From assembly GCF_900177765.1 (NCBI RefSeq), contig NZ_FXWI01000002.1, forward strand, positions 310,001 to 374,000: a DNA stretch of 64,000 nucleotides, given 5' to 3'. The stretch comes from Agreia sp. VKM Ac-1783 (lineage in GTDB: Bacteria; Actinomycetota; Actinomycetes; Actinomycetales; Microbacteriaceae). This document shows, piece by piece, positions 10,502 through 18,223 of the stretch (the stretch's first letter is position 1; each line of letters starts with the position of its first letter). Under the pieces are notes generated by a model. The model had not been told where the DNA came from and did not search any database. It saw only the letters and a program-made list of their open reading frames with translations. The translations under genes were made by a program, and so were the position numbers.

Positions 10502-10709
10502 GTGATGCTCCTCACGCCTCGCTGCTCGACAACCGATCTAGTTATCAAATCACGGGTAGGTTTTGCCGGTGCCGCTTTCGCTCGTGTTTCGCTGTGCGCG
10601 TACGTCGAATCGGGTGTTTCGTGTCGGTGGACCGGCACGGCCCGGCGGGAAACTACAGTTGATCGCTGGGCCCCGATCCAATAGGCCCGACGCTTATTTG
10701 GGAGAACAC

Positions 10710-12794
10710 GTGGCATCGGCCGACTATTCCGCACGGCACCTGTCTGTACTCGAGGGTCTCGAGGCTGTGCGCAAGCGCCCGGGCATGTACATCGGGTCCA
10801 CGGATTCCCGCGGGCTCATGCACTGCGTCTGGGAGATCATCGACAACTCCGTCGACGAGGCCCTGGGCGGCCACGGTTCCGAGATCGAGATCCAGCTGCA
10901 CGCCGACTCGAGCGTCGAGGTTCGTGACCGTGCGCGAGGAATCCCCGTCGATATCGAGCCGAAAACCGGCCTGTCCGGGGTCGAGGTCGTCTTCACCAAG
11001 CTGCACGCCGGCGGAAAGTTCGGCTCTGGTTCGTATGCGGCATCCGGTGGTCTGCACGGCGTCGGCGCCTCGGTCGTCAACGCCCTCTCCGAGCGCCTCG
11101 ATGTCGAGGTCGACCGCGACGGCAAGACCTATGCCATGTCGTTCCACCGGGGAGAGCCGGGCGTCTTCGACGACGCCGGTTCGATTCCGACGCCGGATGC
11201 GCCGTTCACGCCGTTCGAGAACGGCAGCGAACTCCGCATCGTCGGCAAGGTCAAGCGCGGCGTCACGGGAACGCGCATCCGATACTGGGCCGACCGCCAG
11301 ATCTTCAGTTCGACGGCTCGCTTCCAGACTGAAGAGCTCTTCGATCGCGCCCGCCAGACCGCGTTCCTCGTGCCGGGCCTGTCGATCGGCATCACCGACG
11401 AGCGTGGCGAAGAGGTGCGCCGCGACGCGTTCCGCTTCGACGGGGGGATCGCGGAGTTCGTCGAACACCTCGCAACAGATTCGGGCGTCACCGAGACGTG
11501 GCGACTCCAGGGAAGCGGATCGTTCACCGAGACGGTTCCCGTGCTCTCGCCCCAGGGCGCCATGGTGCCGACGGAGCTCAGCCGGGAGTGCGACGTCGAT
11601 CTGGCCCTGCGTTGGGGAACAGGCTACGAGACGACATTCCGCAGTTTTGTGAACATCATCGCGACGCCCAAGGGCGGAACGCACCAGGCCGGTTTCGAGG
11701 CGGGTCTTCTGAAGTTCCTGCGCCAGACCGTCGAGGCGAACGCCCGTCGGCTCAAGGCGGGAACCGACAAGCTCGAGAAAGACGACGTGCTCGCCGGCCT
11801 GACCGCTGTTCTGACCGTTCGGCTGCCCGAGCCTCAGTTCGAAGGCCAGACGAAGGAGATCCTCGGAACCCCCGCGGTACGCAACATCGTGTCTCAGGTC
11901 GTCGCGAAGGGCCTGAAGGAGAGATTCGAGTCGACCAAGCGCGACGACAAGGCCCAGACCGCTCTGGTGCTCGACAAGGTCGTCGCCGAGATGAAGTCGC
12001 GTATCTCAGCCCGAGCGCACAAAGAGACCCAGCGTCGCAAGAACGCCCTCGAGTCGTCGTCGTTGCCGGCGAAGCTCGTGGACTGCCGTTCCAACGATGT
12101 CGCTCTGAGCGAATTGATGATCGTCGAGGGTGACTCGGCGCTGGGAACGGCGAAGCTCGCGCGCAACAGCGAGTTCCAGGCGCTTCTGCCCATTCGAGGC
12201 AAGATCCTCAACGTGCAGAAGGCCTCGGTCTCGGACATGCTGGGCAACACGGAGTGCGCCTCGATCATCCAGGTCATCGGCGCCGGCTCTGGGCGCTCGT
12301 TCGATCTGTCTACGGCCCGTTACGGCAAGATCATCCTGATGAGCGACGCCGACGTCGACGGAGCGCACATCAGAACGCTGCTGCTCACGCTGTTCTTCCG
12401 CTACATGAGGCCCCTGGTCGAAGACGGTCGCGTCTACGCGGCCGTCCCTCCCCTGCACCGCGTCGTCGTGATGAACCCCGGCACGAAGCCCAACGAGACG
12501 ATCTACACCTACTCAGAGGCGGAACTGCACACTCTGCTCACCCAGCTCGACAAGGCGAAGAAGCGCTACCAGGATCCGATCCAGCGCTACAAGGGCCTGG
12601 GCGAGATGGATGCCGATCAGCTCGCGACGACGACGATGGACAAGCGCCACCGCACCCTGCGCCGAGTCGGTGTCAGCGACGCCGAGCGTGCTGAGCGCAC
12701 GTTCGACCTGCTGATGGGCGACGACGTGGCCCCGCGTAAGGAGTTCATCATCGCGGGCTCCGAGGGTATGTCGCGAGAGCGCATCGACACCTGA
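10710..12794 (+). CDS. parE: DNA topoisomerase IV subunit B (ParE)
   Basis: ATPase subunit of topoisomerase IV, 694 residues. The GHKL ATPase domain shows NSVDEALGG, the adenine-binding Asp in VRDRARGIPVD and the lid SGGLHGVGASVVNALS. The Toprim domain shows IVEGDSALG and MSDADVDGAHI, which bind Mg. The tail motif QRYKGLGEMDADQL is intact. The start is the GTG at 10710, five bases after GGGAGAA; a longer frame from 10563 is unsupported. The ATPase motif reads DRARGIP where DNGRGIP is usual; the functional Asp is kept. The gene converges on the alr-like pair with a 30-bp gap. Confidence 0.95.
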   Translation: MASADYSARHLSVLEGLEAVRKRPGMYIGSTDSRGLMHCVWEIIDNSVDEALGGHGSEIEIQLHADSSVEVRDRARGIPVDIEPKTGLSGVEVVFTKLHAGGKFGSGSYAASGGLHGVGASVVNALSERLDVEVDRDGKTYAMSFHRGEPGVFDDAGSIPTPDAPFTPFENGSELRIVGKVKRGVTGTRIRYWADRQIFSSTARFQTEELFDRARQTAFLVPGLSIGITDERGEEVRRDAFRFDGGIAEFVEHLATDSGVTETWRLQGSGSFTETVPVLSPQGAMVPTELSRECDVDLALRWGTGYETTFRSFVNIIATPKGGTHQAGFEAGLLKFLRQTVEANARRLKAGTDKLEKDDVLAGLTAVLTVRLPEPQFEGQTKEILGTPAVRNIVSQVVAKGLKERFESTKRDDKAQTALVLDKVVAEMKSRISARAHKETQRRKNALESSSLPAKLVDCRSNDVALSELMIVEGDSALGTAKLARNSEFQALLPIRGKILNVQKASVSDMLGNTECASIIQVIGAGSGRSFDLSTARYGKIILMSDADVDGAHIRTLLLTLFFRYMRPLVEDGRVYAAVPPLHRVVVMNPGTKPNETIYTYSEAELHTLLTQLDKAKKRYQDPIQRYKGLGEMDADQLATTTMDKRHRTLRRVGVSDAERAERTFDLLMGDDVAPRKEFIIAGSEGMSRERIDT

Positions 12795-12824
12795 TCCGCG
12801 CCGCGCCGAGAATGTGCGCGCCTT

Positions 12825-13898
12825 TCAGACTAGGCGTCGAGGAATTCGCGGGCTCAGCCGTACGACCAGTTCCTCCGACATGGTGTCGGTGGCGTTGCCC
12901 CACTCCTGAAGCGTCTGCTCCCCCGCGCTGCCATCGCCCCACACGGTCACCGTATCGCCGACGGCGACATCGCTGTCGTCATCGAGGGCGATCCAGGCTC
13001 TGTCGACCTCGAGAGGGCCGACAAGCGGATGCCTCCGGCCGTCGATGGCCACGGCGATGCGCCCGGGCGCAGAGGTCGAGAGACCATCGGCGAAGCCGAG
13101 GTCGATGGATGCCCGGCGGCGGCCATCCGGAAGCGCCTCGATCAGCGAGATGGGCGCGCGCAGCGTCATCACCTGACGCAGACCCATGCTCTCGGCGCTC
13201 GGACCGTCGCCGGGCGGCAGCCCGTAGACGAAAGCGCCGAAGCGCACGAGGTCGAATCGCGCGTCTGATCTGGCGAAACCTGCAGCACTGGCTGCCAGGT
13301 GCCGCAGAGGCGCGCGCACGCCGAGGTCACGGGCGATAGCGACAGCATCTTCGAATCGGGCGATCGAGAGCGAATCCTCGTGGTCGTCTGCCTCGGCGAT
13401 GTGGGTCCAGACCGCCACGATCTCGACGACTCCCTGATCCTCCAGATCCCGAGCCCGTGCCACGAGCCCAGGCCAGTCCTCGGGCGTCGCGCCGTTGCGA
13501 TGGAGCCCTGTGTCGATCTTGAGGTGAACCCGAGCGGGGTTCGCGGCTTGCGATGCGGCGATGGTGTTCAGCTGCGCGACAGTCGAGATGCCGAGATCGA
13601 CCGAGGCGGCGATCGCGGGCGCGAGGTCTTCCTCGGGGTCGAGCAGCCAGGCGAAGATCCGGGTGGGCGACGAGACGCCGGCATCGCGCAGCGACAGCGC
13701 CGTGGGCAGATCGAGGGCGCCGATCCACGAGACGCCCGAGTCGACCGCAGCTCTCGTCACGTCGATCAGGCCATGCCCGTATGCGTCGTTCTTGACCACC
13801 ACCATCACCTGAGACGGCGCAACCTGCGCGGTCAGCACGTCGATATTGTGCCGAAGTGCCTCGAGATCGATGAGAATCTCGCCTGTCGGGATCGTCAT
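12825..13898 (-). CDS. Alanine racemase-like protein, long subunit (PLP lysine present, catalytic tyrosine loop deleted)
   Basis: Fold-type III PLP racemase homologue, 357 residues. The barrel is complete: PLP lysine K36 and Y40 in VVVKNDAYGHG, R134 in KIDTGLHRNG, H166 in VWTHIAEAD, S204 in HLAASAAGF and R219 in LVRFGAFVYG. In the C-terminal domain the loop that carries the second catalytic residue (family GVSYGxxY) is missing: PISLIEALPDG runs straight into RRRASIDLGFADG, about 15 residues short. The family M-D substrate motif reads GPLEVDR, and the phosphate-binding Tyr near the C-terminus is Glu. It overlaps the short alr-like gene by four bases (ATGA). As a homodimer it should lack the Tyr base; it may pair with the short protein (see findings). 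Confidence 0.88.
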   Translation of the reverse strand: MTIPTGEILIDLEALRHNIDVLTAQVAPSQVMVVVKNDAYGHGLIDVTRAAVDSGVSWIGALDLPTALSLRDAGVSSPTRIFAWLLDPEEDLAPAIAASVDLGISTVAQLNTIAASQAANPARVHLKIDTGLHRNGATPEDWPGLVARARDLEDQGVVEIVAVWTHIAEADDHEDSLSIARFEDAVAIARDLGVRAPLRHLAASAAGFARSDARFDLVRFGAFVYGLPPGDGPSAESMGLRQVMTLRAPISLIEALPDGRRRASIDLGFADGLSTSAPGRIAVAIDGRRHPLVGPLEVDRAWIALDDDSDVAVGDTVTVWGDGSAGEQTLQEWGNATDTMSEELVVRLSPRIPRRLV

Positions 13899-14647
13899 AC
13901 GTAACTCCGAACGATTCTGTCGCCCAGCGATGCCGTGACCTCCGCCGCGGTCTTTCCCAGGCTCGTGGCCCAGGCCACAGGAGAGGGGTAGCCCTGCGCT
14001 TCGTCTCCGAAGAGCACGACCTCGTCGCCCGGTGAGACCGGCTTGTCGCCGACGTCGAGCATGAAGACGTCCATGGCGACCCGCCCGGCGACCGGGTGGG
14101 TGGAGCCGGCGAACCAAGCCCTACCCCCATTGCACGCGTGTCTGTCGATGCCGTCGCTGTAGCCGAGGCACACCATGGCGAGGGTCGTCGGAGCCGTCGT
14201 GCGGTACACGTAGCCGTAGGAGACACCCTCGTCGGCGCCGACCTTCTTGGTAGACAGGACGCGTGCGGAGAGAGTCATGGCGGGCAGAAGACCGAGGGCT
14301 CGCGGATCGGGAACGGAGAGGGTGTCGAGCCCGAAGATCTCTGGCCCGATGAGACTCTCGGCGGCGGCGTCAGCCTGACGACGCTGGATGGCGGGGATCA
14401 AGACACCCGACGCGCGGATGGCGTGGGCGGCTTCGTCGTTCGACACGAGGAAGGCATCGATCGCCTCTGAGCTCATCGCGGCGGCGACCGCCGCCGCGCC
14501 ATGGCCATAAGCATCGCCACGGAGATCGACGACGATTCTGCTCGGCGAGGCGTGAGCGATGAGGACACGGGAGTTGCCGCGGACGATCCCGAGATCGATC
14601 GTGGCGCGGCGCGGTGGCGTCGGATGGGTCGTGAGCGCTGACGACAT
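13895..14647 (-). CDS. Alanine racemase-like protein, short subunit (catalytic tyrosine present, PLP lysine replaced)
   Basis: A 250-residue alanine racemase homologue, against a usual 360-380. The N-terminal strand keeps the frame of the PLP motif but Arg replaces lysine: R43 in VVDLRGDAYGHG. Between about residues 75 and 115 most of the barrel is gone, including the positions of the family Arg136, His166, Ser204 and Arg219. The C-terminal domain is in contrast well kept: catalytic Y144 in DEGVSYGYVYR, CLGYSDGIDR, and M192-D193 in AGRVAMDVFMLDVG. ATG 14647 follows the gatD-like stop by two bases (TAGTGATG); GTG 14650 is an alternative. The frame is open throughout, so this is not a simple frameshifted pseudogene. 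Confidence 0.88.
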   Translation of the reverse strand: MSSALTTHPTPPRRATIDLGIVRGNSRVLIAHASPSRIVVDLRGDAYGHGAAAVAAAMSSEAIDAFLVSNDEAAHAIRASGVLIPAIQRRQADAAAESLIGPEIFGLDTLSVPDPRALGLLPAMTLSARVLSTKKVGADEGVSYGYVYRTTAPTTLAMVCLGYSDGIDRHACNGGRAWFAGSTHPVAGRVAMDVFMLDVGDKPVSPGDEVVLFGDEAQGYPSPVAWATSLGKTAAEVTASLGDRIVRSYV

Positions 14648-14649
14648 CA

Positions 14650-15399
14650 CTAGATGGTCGTGAAGACGCTCTTGACGTTCGCGACGATCACTTCTCGTGA
14701 CTTGGCGGCCAGACGATCGAGCTCGGCATGCGCTGCCGACGGCGCGTAGGCGACGTCACGGCGTTCCAAGGCGGCTCGGATGACGGCGTCGCTCAACGAG
14801 GGGTTCAACGGCAGAATCGGGCCCTTCGTCTGGGTCGCAATGGATGATCCGGCGATGACGCCCTCACGACCATTGCCGTTGCCGCCACCGGAGGTCACGA
14901 CGCCGAGAGGCACCGCGCCCGAATCGAGGTTCCACTCCGACGCGTTGTCTTCGAAGCCGACCACGGTTCCCTGCGCAGACTCCACGACGATGTATCCGAC
15001 CTGGCGCGGCACTCCGCGTCGAGCCGAGAAGGGAAAGATGCCGACCCCGGCGAGAACGGTGCCGTCGGCGAGTGTGATACCGCCTCCGAGGAGCTCGGCA
15101 CCCGCGCCGACCGCGAAGAAGGGAACTCCGTCGTCTGCCAGTGAGCGCAGAGCCTGCGCGTTCTCCATGAGATCTGCGTAGACGGCGCGAACGGCCGAGA
15201 CGGGGCCGTTTCCGATCACGACGATGTCGGGGTCTTTCGGAAGGCGCCGACCGATGGTGTGCTGCACGACGTCGACCTGGTGGCCCGCTCGCTCGAGACG
15301 TGCCCGCAGCGCCGTGACGTTGCCACGCTCGCCGCTCGACTCGAGGTGCTCGGGGTACAGCTCCAGAATCGATACCGAGTGTGCGGATGACGAACTCAA
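14650..15399 (-). CDS. GatD-like glutamine amidotransferase homologue lacking catalytic Cys and His
   Basis: A 249-residue homologue of GatD, the CobB/CobQ-type glutaminase that feeds ammonia to MurT for amidation of lipid II D-Glu. The scaffold matches: LELYPEHLESSGERGNVTAL at the start, GFEDNASEW, GGGNGNGREGV and KGPILPLNPSLSD. The nucleophile elbow reads FFAVGAGAELLG, so G98 stands where the Cys belongs, and TKGP puts K192 where the catalytic His of LHGP belongs. The early GGGxDxxQ motif is also lost (VIGNGPVSAV). The start is TTG 15399, seven bases after GGAGG and overlapping the murT-like stop (TTGA). It is therefore probably a structural subunit, not a glutaminase. Confidence 0.88.
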   Translation of the reverse strand: MSSSSAHSVSILELYPEHLESSGERGNVTALRARLERAGHQVDVVQHTIGRRLPKDPDIVVIGNGPVSAVRAVYADLMENAQALRSLADDGVPFFAVGAGAELLGGGITLADGTVLAGVGIFPFSARRGVPRQVGYIVVESAQGTVVGFEDNASEWNLDSGAVPLGVVTSGGGNGNGREGVIAGSSIATQTKGPILPLNPSLSDAVIRAALERRDVAYAPSAAHAELDRLAAKSREVIVANVKSVFTTI

Positions 15400-16676
15400 A
15401 ACGAGACCTCCATGTCGCCGTAGCCGATGATCTTTCTCGCGAGCATCATCTGCTCGTAGTTGACGACCCAGGTCTTGTGACCCGTCGTCGGTGCGGGAAG
15501 GGCGCGCATCAACTCGATGGCCTTCTTGAGGTCGGGTTCGATCGTTCCGACGGGAATTCCCTCGTGCTCTAGCCGCAGCGCGAACTGCCATGCCTTTGCG
15601 CCCGTGAGCACATCGACGTGGTCGAGCTGCGCGAAGTCGATGTCGTAGAGCCAGGAGACGTCGGGCGTGCCCTCGTCGATAGCGACCATGACCTGTTCGG
15701 GCGCTGCGGGGAGCGCATCGAGATTGAGTTGAAGGCTCGCGGCGTTCTTGAACATCACGAACTCCACCTTCTCGTTTCCGAAGTCGAGCAGCTCGCCTCG
15801 ACCGTACGCGGGTGTCATCGACGAGAACGCAGCCGACGCTTTCGCCAGGTCGAATTCGGTGCCGAGCACCTGAGCCGCCGTGGCGAGTGCCGCCGCTGCA
15901 TCGATTCCGTAGTGCAGTCCCTTGGCGGGAAGTACCACGTCGGCCAGTTCGCCCCCGACTCGGATGCGAGCTCCCGTGCTGTCCCAGGACTCGAGTTCGG
16001 CGAGTGCGTCGATCGGCGCGGTCGATGCCTCTTCGCGGTGATTGGCCGCATTGAACAGGCCGTGTGCGGAGTCGGCGACGAGCTTCGGCGCCGCCCCGAA
16101 GTAGGTGACATCGGGAACAACGGATCCCTTCTTCGACAGGATCTCGCCGATCTTCGACAGATACGCGTCGTCGCGATTACTGATGACGTGCTGTGTCGCG
16201 ACCGCAGCGGTGTCGAGCATCATGTCGGCGACGACCTCGGTCTCGAAGAACCGGTAGAGCTGGTCGACCTGCACGTTGAGCATGAGAATGGTCGACGGCA
16301 GCAGCGTCTTCGACAACTCGAGCGCGAATGCTTCGTCGACTTCGAGGATGCCGATGTCGGCTTTCAGCTTGCCGGTGACGCCGACCTCGGAAAGCAGAGC
16401 CGAGGAGATGCCCTGCGGCAGGTTCGCACCGGAGGGATTCGTGAACACCGTCAGTCCGTGCCCACGCAGAACCTCGGTGAGCATGTGGGTGGTCGTCGAC
16501 TTGCCATTGGATCCGAGAACGAAGACGATGCCGTACTCGAACTGGGCAACTACATTCTTGATGAAGCCGGGCGCCATCTTGTTGACGATGTAACCGGGCA
16601 GCGCCGATCCGCCGCCGCGGGCCCGGGTGACAGCCCGGACCGCGCGACCGACGAGAACGGGCGCGATATAACGCAT
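15396..16676 (-). CDS. MurT-like Mur ligase homologue without zinc-ribbon cysteines
   Basis: A 426-residue Mur-ligase-type ATP-dependent enzyme of the MurT family (lipid II isoglutaminyl synthase subunit in A-type walls). The P-loop is VLGSNGKSTTTHM (K59), followed by FTNPSGANLPQGI, DIGILEVDEAF and LNVQVDQLYRF, with the C-terminal DVSWLYDIDF block and YGIDAAAALATAAQ. MurT proteins usually carry a four-Cys zinc ribbon in the middle domain; this protein has no cysteine at all. The ATG at 16676 lies seven bases after the sigA stop, and the stop overlaps the gatD-like TTG, so sigA, murT-like and gatD-like genes are probably co-transcribed. Confidence 0.9.
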   Translation of the reverse strand: MRYIAPVLVGRAVRAVTRARGGGSALPGYIVNKMAPGFIKNVVAQFEYGIVFVLGSNGKSTTTHMLTEVLRGHGLTVFTNPSGANLPQGISSALLSEVGVTGKLKADIGILEVDEAFALELSKTLLPSTILMLNVQVDQLYRFFETEVVADMMLDTAAVATQHVISNRDDAYLSKIGEILSKKGSVVPDVTYFGAAPKLVADSAHGLFNAANHREEASTAPIDALAELESWDSTGARIRVGGELADVVLPAKGLHYGIDAAAALATAAQVLGTEFDLAKASAAFSSMTPAYGRGELLDFGNEKVEFVMFKNAASLQLNLDALPAAPEQVMVAIDEGTPDVSWLYDIDFAQLDHVDVLTGAKAWQFALRLEHEGIPVGTIEPDLKKAIELMRALPAPTTGHKTWVVNYEQMMLARKIIGYGDMEVSF

Positions 16677-16683
16677 CCGCGGC

Positions 16684-18024
16684 CTACTCGAGGTAGTCGC
16701 GCAGAGACTGCGAACGCGACGGGTGGCGCAGCTTCGCCATCGTCTTCGACTCGATCTGCCGGATGCGCTCACGGGTGACGCCGAAGGTGTCACCGATCTG
16801 GTCGAGCGTCTTCGGCATGCCGTCGCCGAGACCGAAGCGCATGCGGATGACGCCCGCCTCGCGCTCCGAGAGAGAGTCGAGCAGCGACTCGAGCTGCTTC
16901 TGCAGCATGGTGAAGCCCACGGCATCGGCCGGAACGACCGCCTCGGTGTCTTCGATCAGGTCGCCGAACTCGCTGTCGCCGTCTTCACCCAGAGGCGTGT
17001 GCAGCGAGATGGGCTCACGCCCGTACTTCTGCACCTCGACGACCTTCTCAGGGGTCATGTCGAGTTCACGCGACAGCTCTTCTGGCGTGGGCTCGCGTCC
17101 CAGGTCCTGGAGCATCTGGCGCTGCACGCGGGCGAGCTTGTTGATGACCTCGACCATGTGCACGGGGATGCGGATCGTGCGGGCCTGGTCAGCCATGGCT
17201 CGCGTGATCGCCTGTCGAATCCACCAGGTCGCGTAGGTGGAGAACTTGAAGCCCTTCGTGTAGTCGAACTTCTCGACAGCGCGGATGAGGCCCAGGTTTC
17301 CTTCCTGGATGAGGTCGAGGAACTGCATTCCACGACCGGTGTAGCGCTTTGCCAGGCTCACGACGAGACGCAGGTTGGCGCCGAGCAGGTGGCTCTTTGC
17401 GCGGGCGCCGTCGCGGGCGACCCACTGGAGCTCACGGCCATAGGCCGACTTCTTCTCGGCTTCGCTCATCGTCGACATGGTGTCTTCGGCGAAGAGTCCG
17501 GCTTCGATGCGCATGGCGAGTTCGACCTCTTCGGCCGCGTTCAGGAGCGCGACCTTACCGATCTGCTTCAGGTAGTCCTTGACCGGGTCGGCTGTTGCAC
17601 CGGTGATCGCGGTCGAGTAGACCGGAACGTCGCTGTCGTCGTCAGCATCGGAGATGACCAACGCTCCGGCAGGAAGAACGATCTCGGCTGCCGGCTTGGG
17701 CGATCCGTCGTCGGCTTCGTCGTCGGTCGTGGTCTCGTCTTCGTCGACGACGACCTCGACGACAGCGCCTGCTTCGGCATCGTCGTCGTCGGCGCCGGGA
17801 CCGTCGGCTTCTGCCGCGGCCTTGGCCTTCTTTGCGGCGGCAGCAGTCTTGGCTGCAGCAGCCTTCGTGGGAGCCTTCGCCGCTTTAGCTGCAGGAGCCT
17901 TCGTCGCGGTGGTCTTGGCGGCAGCGGCCTTTGCGGCTGCGGCCTTCGTCACCGGCTTTGCTGCTGCTGCAGCAGGCTCGTCGGCGACGGGTTCGAGTGT
18001 TGTGGTTGATTTGCGGGTGGCCAT
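16684..18024 (-). CDS. sigA: Principal RNA polymerase sigma factor SigA/RpoD
   Basis: Primary sigma factor, 446 residues. The N-terminal 110 residues are an Ala/Lys-rich repeat (blocks such as [11 protein letters not shown]) followed by an acidic stretch, as in other actinobacterial HrdB/SigA proteins. Region 1.2 is [16 protein letters not shown], region 2 contains [20 protein letters not shown] and [18 protein letters not shown], region 3 [17 protein letters not shown], and region 4 [22 protein letters not shown]. The start is ATG 18024 after GAAAGGTGATCGT; a longer frame lacks similarity. The 199-bp upstream region contains TTGACA (18123-18128, minus strand) but no good -10 at standard spacing. 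The murT-like gene follows after seven bases. Confidence 0.97.
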
Positions 18025-18223
18025 ACGATCACCTTTCACGCCGGTCTCACCGGGTGGATTCGACTCTCCCGAGCCGATGCCAATTGGAGGCTGGAGTTGT
18101 TTTCTGACATTACTAAGACCCATGTCAAGTGCTGGGTTTTTTGCGTCTGGATCACCAGACACCCTGCACAAGAACGGGTCTCGATTCTCAATTATTGCAC
18201 GGATTGCAGAGATGCCCCTCCGC

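Follow-up and report, generated by a model that had tools for sequence, protein, structure and literature searches.

A split pair of alanine-racemase-like genes in Agreia and other Microbacteriaceae, probably encoding an obligate heterodimer

Related enzymes and the Agreia gene pair

Cell-wall synthesis depends on alanine racemase, which is essential, serves as a drug target and is the textbook case of a homodimer with its active site between identical subunits. Among PLP enzymes, serine palmitoyltransferase joins two paralogous subunits (SPTLC1/SPTLC2), one of which has lost the PLP lysine, in a heterodimer; it is eukaryotic and belongs to PLP fold type I, unlike the proteins described here, and we know of no reciprocal loss of the second base in it. 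In alanine racemase, the partner subunit contributes Tyr268', Met316' and Asp317' (T. tengcongensis numbering), and a complete pocket needs dimer formation (PMC4517790, PMC3245724). Tyr354 and Tyr265' form a 2.7-Å gate that sets alanine specificity; the Tyr354 position is occupied by Thr in lysine racemase and by Ala in a broad-specificity enzyme (PMC3485190). A live enzyme that requires a dead paralogue is known from T. brucei AdoMetDC and its prozyme, which reportedly relieves autoinhibition and lends no catalytic residues (PMC5201418). A literature search, with subscription journals largely outside its scope, found no split or heterodimeric alanine racemase.

The window analysed here, 64,000 nucleotides of contig C6 of the Agreia sp. 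VKM Ac-1783 genome, carries two adjacent genes resembling alanine racemase (fold type III; TIGR00492, PF01168+PF00842; 1vfh, 1xfc) in fold and, taken over the pair, in catalytic residues. Alanine racemase, however, is encoded by a single gene and forms a symmetric homodimer that has two sites, whereas here there are two genes and one predicted site, and Tyr354 of the former is Glu in the window pair. On the minus strand the order is MurT-like, GatD-like, short, long (Table 1).

Table 1 Features of the window and of the second Agreia pair (window positions unless a locus is given; codons counted from the start codon)
Feature	Position	Strand	Length	Remarks
Long subunit gene	12825..13898	-	357 aa	
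Long subunit, parts				Complete barrel (Lys36, Arg134, His166, Ser204, Arg219); C-domain without catalytic-Tyr loop; Val298-Asp299; Glu342 at Tyr354 position
Short subunit gene	13895..14647	-	250 aa	ATG at 14647
Short subunit, parts				Barrel remnant (Arg43 for lysine); complete C-domain with Tyr144 (GVSYG), Arg189, Met192-Asp193
Stop/start overlap	13895..13898	-	4 nt	ATGA; ATG of long over TGA of short
Lys36 codon	13791..13793	-		PLP lysine of long
Tyr144 codon	14216..14218	-		Catalytic tyrosine of short
GatD-like glutamine amidotransferase frame	14650..15591	-		Directly upstream of short gene; real start likely downstream of 15591
MurT-like ligase frame	15396..16925	-		Upstream of gatD
ParE-like gene	10563-12794			Next gene beyond long; named by reading of the translation
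Primary sigma factor gene	16684-18171			On MurT/GatD side; named by reading of the translation
Second-pair long (contig C3)	L012:5972-7084		370 aa	Lysine and Tyr354 kept, Tyr loop absent
Second-pair short (contig C3)	L012:7081-7857		258 aa	Thr for lysine; GVSYG and AMD kept

Both proteins scored above the Pfam cut-offs. The long protein matched Ala_racemase_N completely (1-220 of 220) and Ala_racemase_C from position 32, and the short protein matched all of Ala_racemase_C and only 1-87 of 220 of Ala_racemase_N; against TIGR00492 (cut-off 168) the long protein reached 201 bits and the short one 114, below the cut-off. Residues were mapped by aligning both proteins, with HMMER, to actinobacterial alanine racemases of known structure. 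The long protein keeps Lys36, Arg134, His166, Ser204 and Arg219, has a 14-residue gap where GVSYG.. would be and has V298-D299 for M-D. The short protein has Arg43 for the lysine and lacks the Arg136/His166/Ser204/Arg219 region, while Tyr144 in GVSYG, Arg189 and M192-D193 are present. The residue details that a first-pass annotation had drawn up from the sequence alone are confirmed, including Glu (Glu342 here) in the long and Ala in the short protein at the Tyr354 position. The window pair lacks the gate tyrosine, which is kept in the second Agreia pair, and its long protein has Glu in place of the Thr or Ala of lysine racemase and the broad-specificity enzyme. The PLP lysine and the second-base tyrosine occur together in neither polypeptide; only the pair jointly has both. 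The pair is part of the alanine-racemase superfamily, and neither protein alone has the defining features of the enzyme.

A single-chain AlphaFold model of the long protein, built from an alignment of six sequences including five Agreia relatives, was of moderate quality (pLDDT 65.3, pTM 0.61), and the 50 Foldseek matches listed for it were alanine racemases or near relatives of these, with TM scores of 0.65-0.75 normalised by query length and an rmsd of about 6. The short protein did not fold from its six-sequence alignment (mean pLDDT 40.4), and that model was unusable.

Conservation, coupling and fusion of the two halves

PF00842 was searched in eight genomes of the genus, including this one, and in 249 genomes of the family (246 with a match), with every row tabulated for 42 + 46 genomes (88 in all). 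From these, 80 stretches were taken, and their proteins were classed with a column table that was built on a profile combining four ordinary alanine racemases. The split takes three forms: type A (the window type), type B (the Agreia alr locus) and fused. The first-pass annotation had singled out the joint conservation of both genes across Microbacteriaceae as informative, and type A was indeed kept, with 49 shorts (48 genomes, 29 genera) and 48 longs (47 genomes, 28 genera); the difference arises from one long cut by a contig end (G019). Type A longs have Lys39, Arg136, His166, Ser204 and Arg219 in 48/48 and neither Tyr265 (0/48) nor Met312 (0/48); position 354 is Asp in 25, Glu in 21 and unaligned in 2. 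The shorts have Tyr265 and Met312 in 49/49, Arg309 in 46/49 and Lys39 in 0/49, with another residue in 38 and no aligned one in 11, six of which show the motif minus its lysine and five no barrel motif at all. Type B has the complementary pattern on both sides in 7/7, with Tyr354 kept in the long. Complementary loss was thus without exception in type A (48 longs, 49 shorts), type B (7 + 7) and fused halves (12 + 12), and since it is present in every intact pair classified, it is not a matter of chance.

The loss of one gene beside a partner with a normal site had been named beforehand as evidence against pairing. No orphan long-type or short-type half was seen in the tables of the 88 fully tabulated genomes, a scan made by reading these tables, in which full-size second copies (including one in G021) were only partly classified. 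Outside the family, a split pair was found in 0/74 genomes of the order as judged by match ranges, three of these having no match and one (G323) two pieces in one frame.

Fusion of exactly two such halves is a classical sign of joint function. A single open frame, 629-796 codons from stop to stop, carries both a long and a short in 12 genomes of three genera: g21 (G027, G106, G166, G215), g74 (G080, G142, G193, G238) and g50 (G056, G125, G179, G227). Eight of these fusions were read fully (L109, L112, L114, L124, L126, L127, L128, L129) and the rest by profile. All 12 have Lys and Tyr354 in the long half and Tyr265 and Met312 in the short half, and a donor barrel motif was seen in none of the four g50 fusions. 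The fusion is the sole PF00842 gene in nine genomes (G027, G106, G166, G215, G142, G056, G125, G179, G227). The fusions give indirect support to the prediction that the subunits bind each other and are inactive alone. One genome (G238) also holds a type A fusion in short-long order (L111), and in L129 a TsaE-like domain, identified by reading, follows the fusion.

In the separate genes, the downstream start lies on the upstream stop with a 4-nt overlap in 40 of the 50 pairs compared (nearest in-frame start used, L007-L011 excluded). The remaining spacings were -1 (n = 4), -8 (n = 2), +2 (n = 1) and +49 (n = 1, G022), and two rows were script artefacts (the L103 cross pair and the L149 order). 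Across ten comparisons among five Agreia sequences per gene, dN/dS was low in both, ranging over 0.14-0.20 in the long (L009 excluded) and 0.16-0.26 in the short (L008 excluded), the two exclusions being for unequal length; dS in these comparisons was high and in places reached about 1.4. Within the short, the C-half (0.08-0.13) was more constrained than the barrel remnant (0.26-0.47; five Agreia sequences), so that the expected residue donor is its most constrained part.

The Agreia genome (7 contigs, 100% complete) has four PF00842 matches, which are the halves of two split pairs, and the profile search found no other PF00842 protein there. PF01168 matches at C6:103643 and C6:523653 give no PF00842 match. 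Six further genomes of the genus have four matches each and G007 has two; the second, diverged pair has the identical split design in 7/7 genomes. In Agreia it takes the genomic place of ordinary alr (glmS, alr, tsaB, tsaD), lying after glmS and before tsaB/tsaD-like genes, all named by reading. These data also bear on whether the two genes could be decaying duplicates on their way to pseudogenes in an organism relying on another racemase. The large deletions in both genes relative to the family would suit such decay, but the absence of any further PF00842 protein, dN/dS values far below 1 and a split shared by 48 genomes of 29 genera already contradict it, and we regard it as extremely improbable.

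D-Ala-D-Ala ligase was above cut-off in 17/17 genomes tested, and a D-amino-acid transaminase in 0/20, with weaker aminotransferase matches in 19. With the ligase present, no transaminase above cut-off and split pairs alone for the racemase, the D-Ala of Agreia should come from a split pair, barring another enzyme type or uptake. The pair at the alr locus, whose long keeps Tyr354, is presumably the Agreia alanine racemase. Annotation of alr in Microbacteriaceae would change accordingly, as neither half is a complete enzyme.

The proposed composite site

The window proteins divide along the partner-donation line of the alanine racemase site. Each gene keeps half of the active site and therefore very probably must pair with the other to work. 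We accordingly consider it highly probable, on sequence and comparative grounds, that the pair encodes a PLP racemase of alanine-racemase fold that is an obligate heterodimer and has a single composite site, in which PLP is held by the long and the tyrosine provided by the short. Lys36 of the long subunit would hold PLP in a Schiff base, and the same subunit would supply the barrel ligands. The short subunit would be the donor, its C-domain lending two residues to the site of the long, Tyr144 (the second base of catalysis) and Met192, in a manner that mirrors the mutual lending between subunits of the ordinary homodimer. Because the short is without lysine and barrel and the long without the Tyr loop, the reciprocal site would be impossible, which leaves one working site per dimer. 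Physical pairing, activity and the single site per dimer are predictions. The obligate heterodimer had been the central proposal of the first-pass annotation, and it is favoured by the residue complementarity, the lack of orphan halves in the tables of the 88 genomes, the fusions and the lack of an ordinary enzyme in the same genome.

Alternatively, the long might be active alone, as a homodimer or monomer using one-base or other chemistry, with the short as a regulatory pseudoenzyme of the prozyme type. The long does keep a complete PLP site, and regulation of a live partner by a dead paralogue has the precedent of T. brucei AdoMetDC (PMC5201418). The short, however, conserves exactly the donor residues (Tyr and Met in 49/49), its C-half is the most constrained part, the fusions retain both donor residues in 12/12, even those in which the short has no visible barrel remnant, and a second base would be superfluous for a mere regulator. 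We therefore judge an independently active long to be quite unlikely.

A heterodimer could also form and the type A reaction be something other than racemisation, for example decarboxylation or PLP handling. The acidic residue at the specificity-controlling position 354 in 46/48 type A longs (two unaligned) is what speaks for a different reaction. Against it, both racemisation bases are kept across the pair, and full-length tandem relatives with Asp/Glu354 have all other tabulated catalytic residues; on balance a non-racemase seems improbable, and the heterodimeric racemase is the reading followed below.

Origin and possible substrate of the split pairs

A wider account is possible, though we hold it tentatively, at somewhat less than even confidence. 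Obligate heterodimers, and single-chain fusions with a bare C-domain donor, would have taken over from the homodimer on at least two occasions and probably on more. They would be the sole alanine racemase in Agreia and in the fusion-only genomes, and type A would make another D-amino acid, perhaps the D-diamino acid that belongs to the B-type wall. A clade in which intact tandem copies occur alongside split pairs, fused pairs and donors lacking a barrel would offer a natural experiment in the passage from homodimer to obligate heterodimer. A published model of neutral drift finds that, once a gene is duplicated, homomers tend to give way to heteromers (PMC11066126).

Two complete tandem genes occur in 12 genomes of 10 genera, always with Tyr354 in the upstream copy and Asp or Glu in the downstream one; one of these genomes, G007, belongs to the genus of the window by the taxonomy of the tool. 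The type A pair is absent from all 12, as would fit if type A and the downstream copy had a second function in common. In a tree of the barrel domain, type A longs group with downstream copies and type B longs with upstream copies, that of G007 included. AU tests on this domain (115 sequences, 218 columns, fast-search trees) rejected a single origin of all longs (p-AU 2e-5), A and B longs together (9e-6) and type A longs as a clade excluding tandem copies (0.001). Rejection of B and fused longs together was marginal (0.036; SH 0.148), and A longs with downstream copies were not rejected (0.108). Gene conversion could be another source of this nesting. For the C-domain of the shorts, tested with the edge-cut genes L062, L068, L073, L074 and L076 excluded, neither one origin (0.32) nor A and B shorts together (0.077) was rejected, so that separate origins of the shorts are neither supported nor rejected; an apparent rejection of common origin disappeared without these five rows. 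Type B shorts group with downstream copies (SH-like 0.91), with alternatives not rejected. Judged by the long barrels, duplicated racemase genes thus appear to have decayed complementarily at least twice independently; the rejections above bear on the separate origins, and the mode of decay is our interpretation.

Alanine as substrate suits the second Agreia pair with its Tyr354 and is less certain for the window pair, given Asp/Glu in 46/48 type A longs (two unaligned). Because Glu replaces the gate tyrosine, the substrate of the window pair may differ from alanine. More generally, Asp or Glu at 354 suggests another substrate for type A, and a cationic side chain would fit; it also removes the phosphate contact, which may mean a different substrate or a different reaction. 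The lysine and broad-specificity racemases (Lyr/Bar) are alike in that the gate tyrosine is replaced and the pocket opened to bulkier substrates, and differ from type A, with its Asp/Glu, in having Thr or Ala at 354 and in being single-gene enzymes (PMC3485190).

A MurT- or GatD-like frame was found in 33/48 type A stretches (weakly in L100), and among the 15 loci without such a match the ParE-like start was recognisable in nine (first 60 residues per frame). MurT and GatD act on the peptidoglycan stem, and the peptidoglycan of Microbacteriaceae is of the B type and often contains D-ornithine or D-diaminobutyrate. The diaminobutyrate aminotransferase profile TIGR00709, above cut-off in 13/77 genomes, showed no association with a second racemase: it was above cut-off in 6/38 genomes with a type A pair or tandem Asp/Glu354, in 4/36 with a single PF00842 match and in 3/3 with a fusion only, and Agreia itself had none above cut-off. 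After this null result, what speaks for the diamino-acid idea is the acidic residue at 354, together with the MurT/GatD neighbourhood and the general wall chemistry of the family. These weakly suggest that type A racemises a diamino acid, and the window pair would then act on a second cell-wall amino acid, perhaps such a diamino acid. Type A may still serve alanine, since G022 (927,303 bases in one contig, 98% complete) has a type A pair with Asp at 354 as its only pair and has a D-Ala-D-Ala ligase. In G064, a diaminobutyrate aminotransferase gene adjoins the pair, the sole positive hint in the marker test.

Type-A pairs and their neighbours

One type-A pair (a long racemase-like protein with the PLP lysine and barrel and with Asp/Glu at position 354, and a short putative donor of the catalytic Tyr and Met) makes up the sole racemase genes of this kind in the reduced genome G022. 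A ParE-like neighbour, as in the window, was also found at 9 of the 15 type-A loci tabulated as having no MurT/GatD match. In G064, a diaminobutyrate-aminotransferase-type gene directly adjoins the pair. The shorts of L091, L092, L094, L095 and L121 have lost the barrel motif and retain the C-domain and little else.

Coordinates of pairs and neighbouring genes
Feature	Location	Remarks
Type-A pair	L133:3726-5646	G022, reduced genome, 927,303 bases
Second long and short pair, diverged	L012:5972-7857 = G000:C3:713971-715856	Ordinary alr locus of own genome (G000)
Diaminobutyrate-aminotransferase-type gene	L089:905-2182 (G064)	TIGR00709 above cut-off
Sigma factor, murT, gatD, short, long, parE block	Window 10563-18171	

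Other racemase arrangements

The alr-locus pair of the window's own genome has the long gene first, the reverse of the window pair, and retains Tyr354. Complete racemase genes stand in tandem in 12 genomes (L134-L145), none with a type-A pair; in all 12 the upstream copy carries Tyr354 and the downstream copy Asp/Glu354.

Fusions

G056, G125, G179 and G227 (L129-L132) each have a single PF00842 gene, in which the long is fused to a donor C-domain that shows no barrel motif. L129, the only one of the four whose whole sequence was inspected, continues into a TsaE-like ATPase domain.
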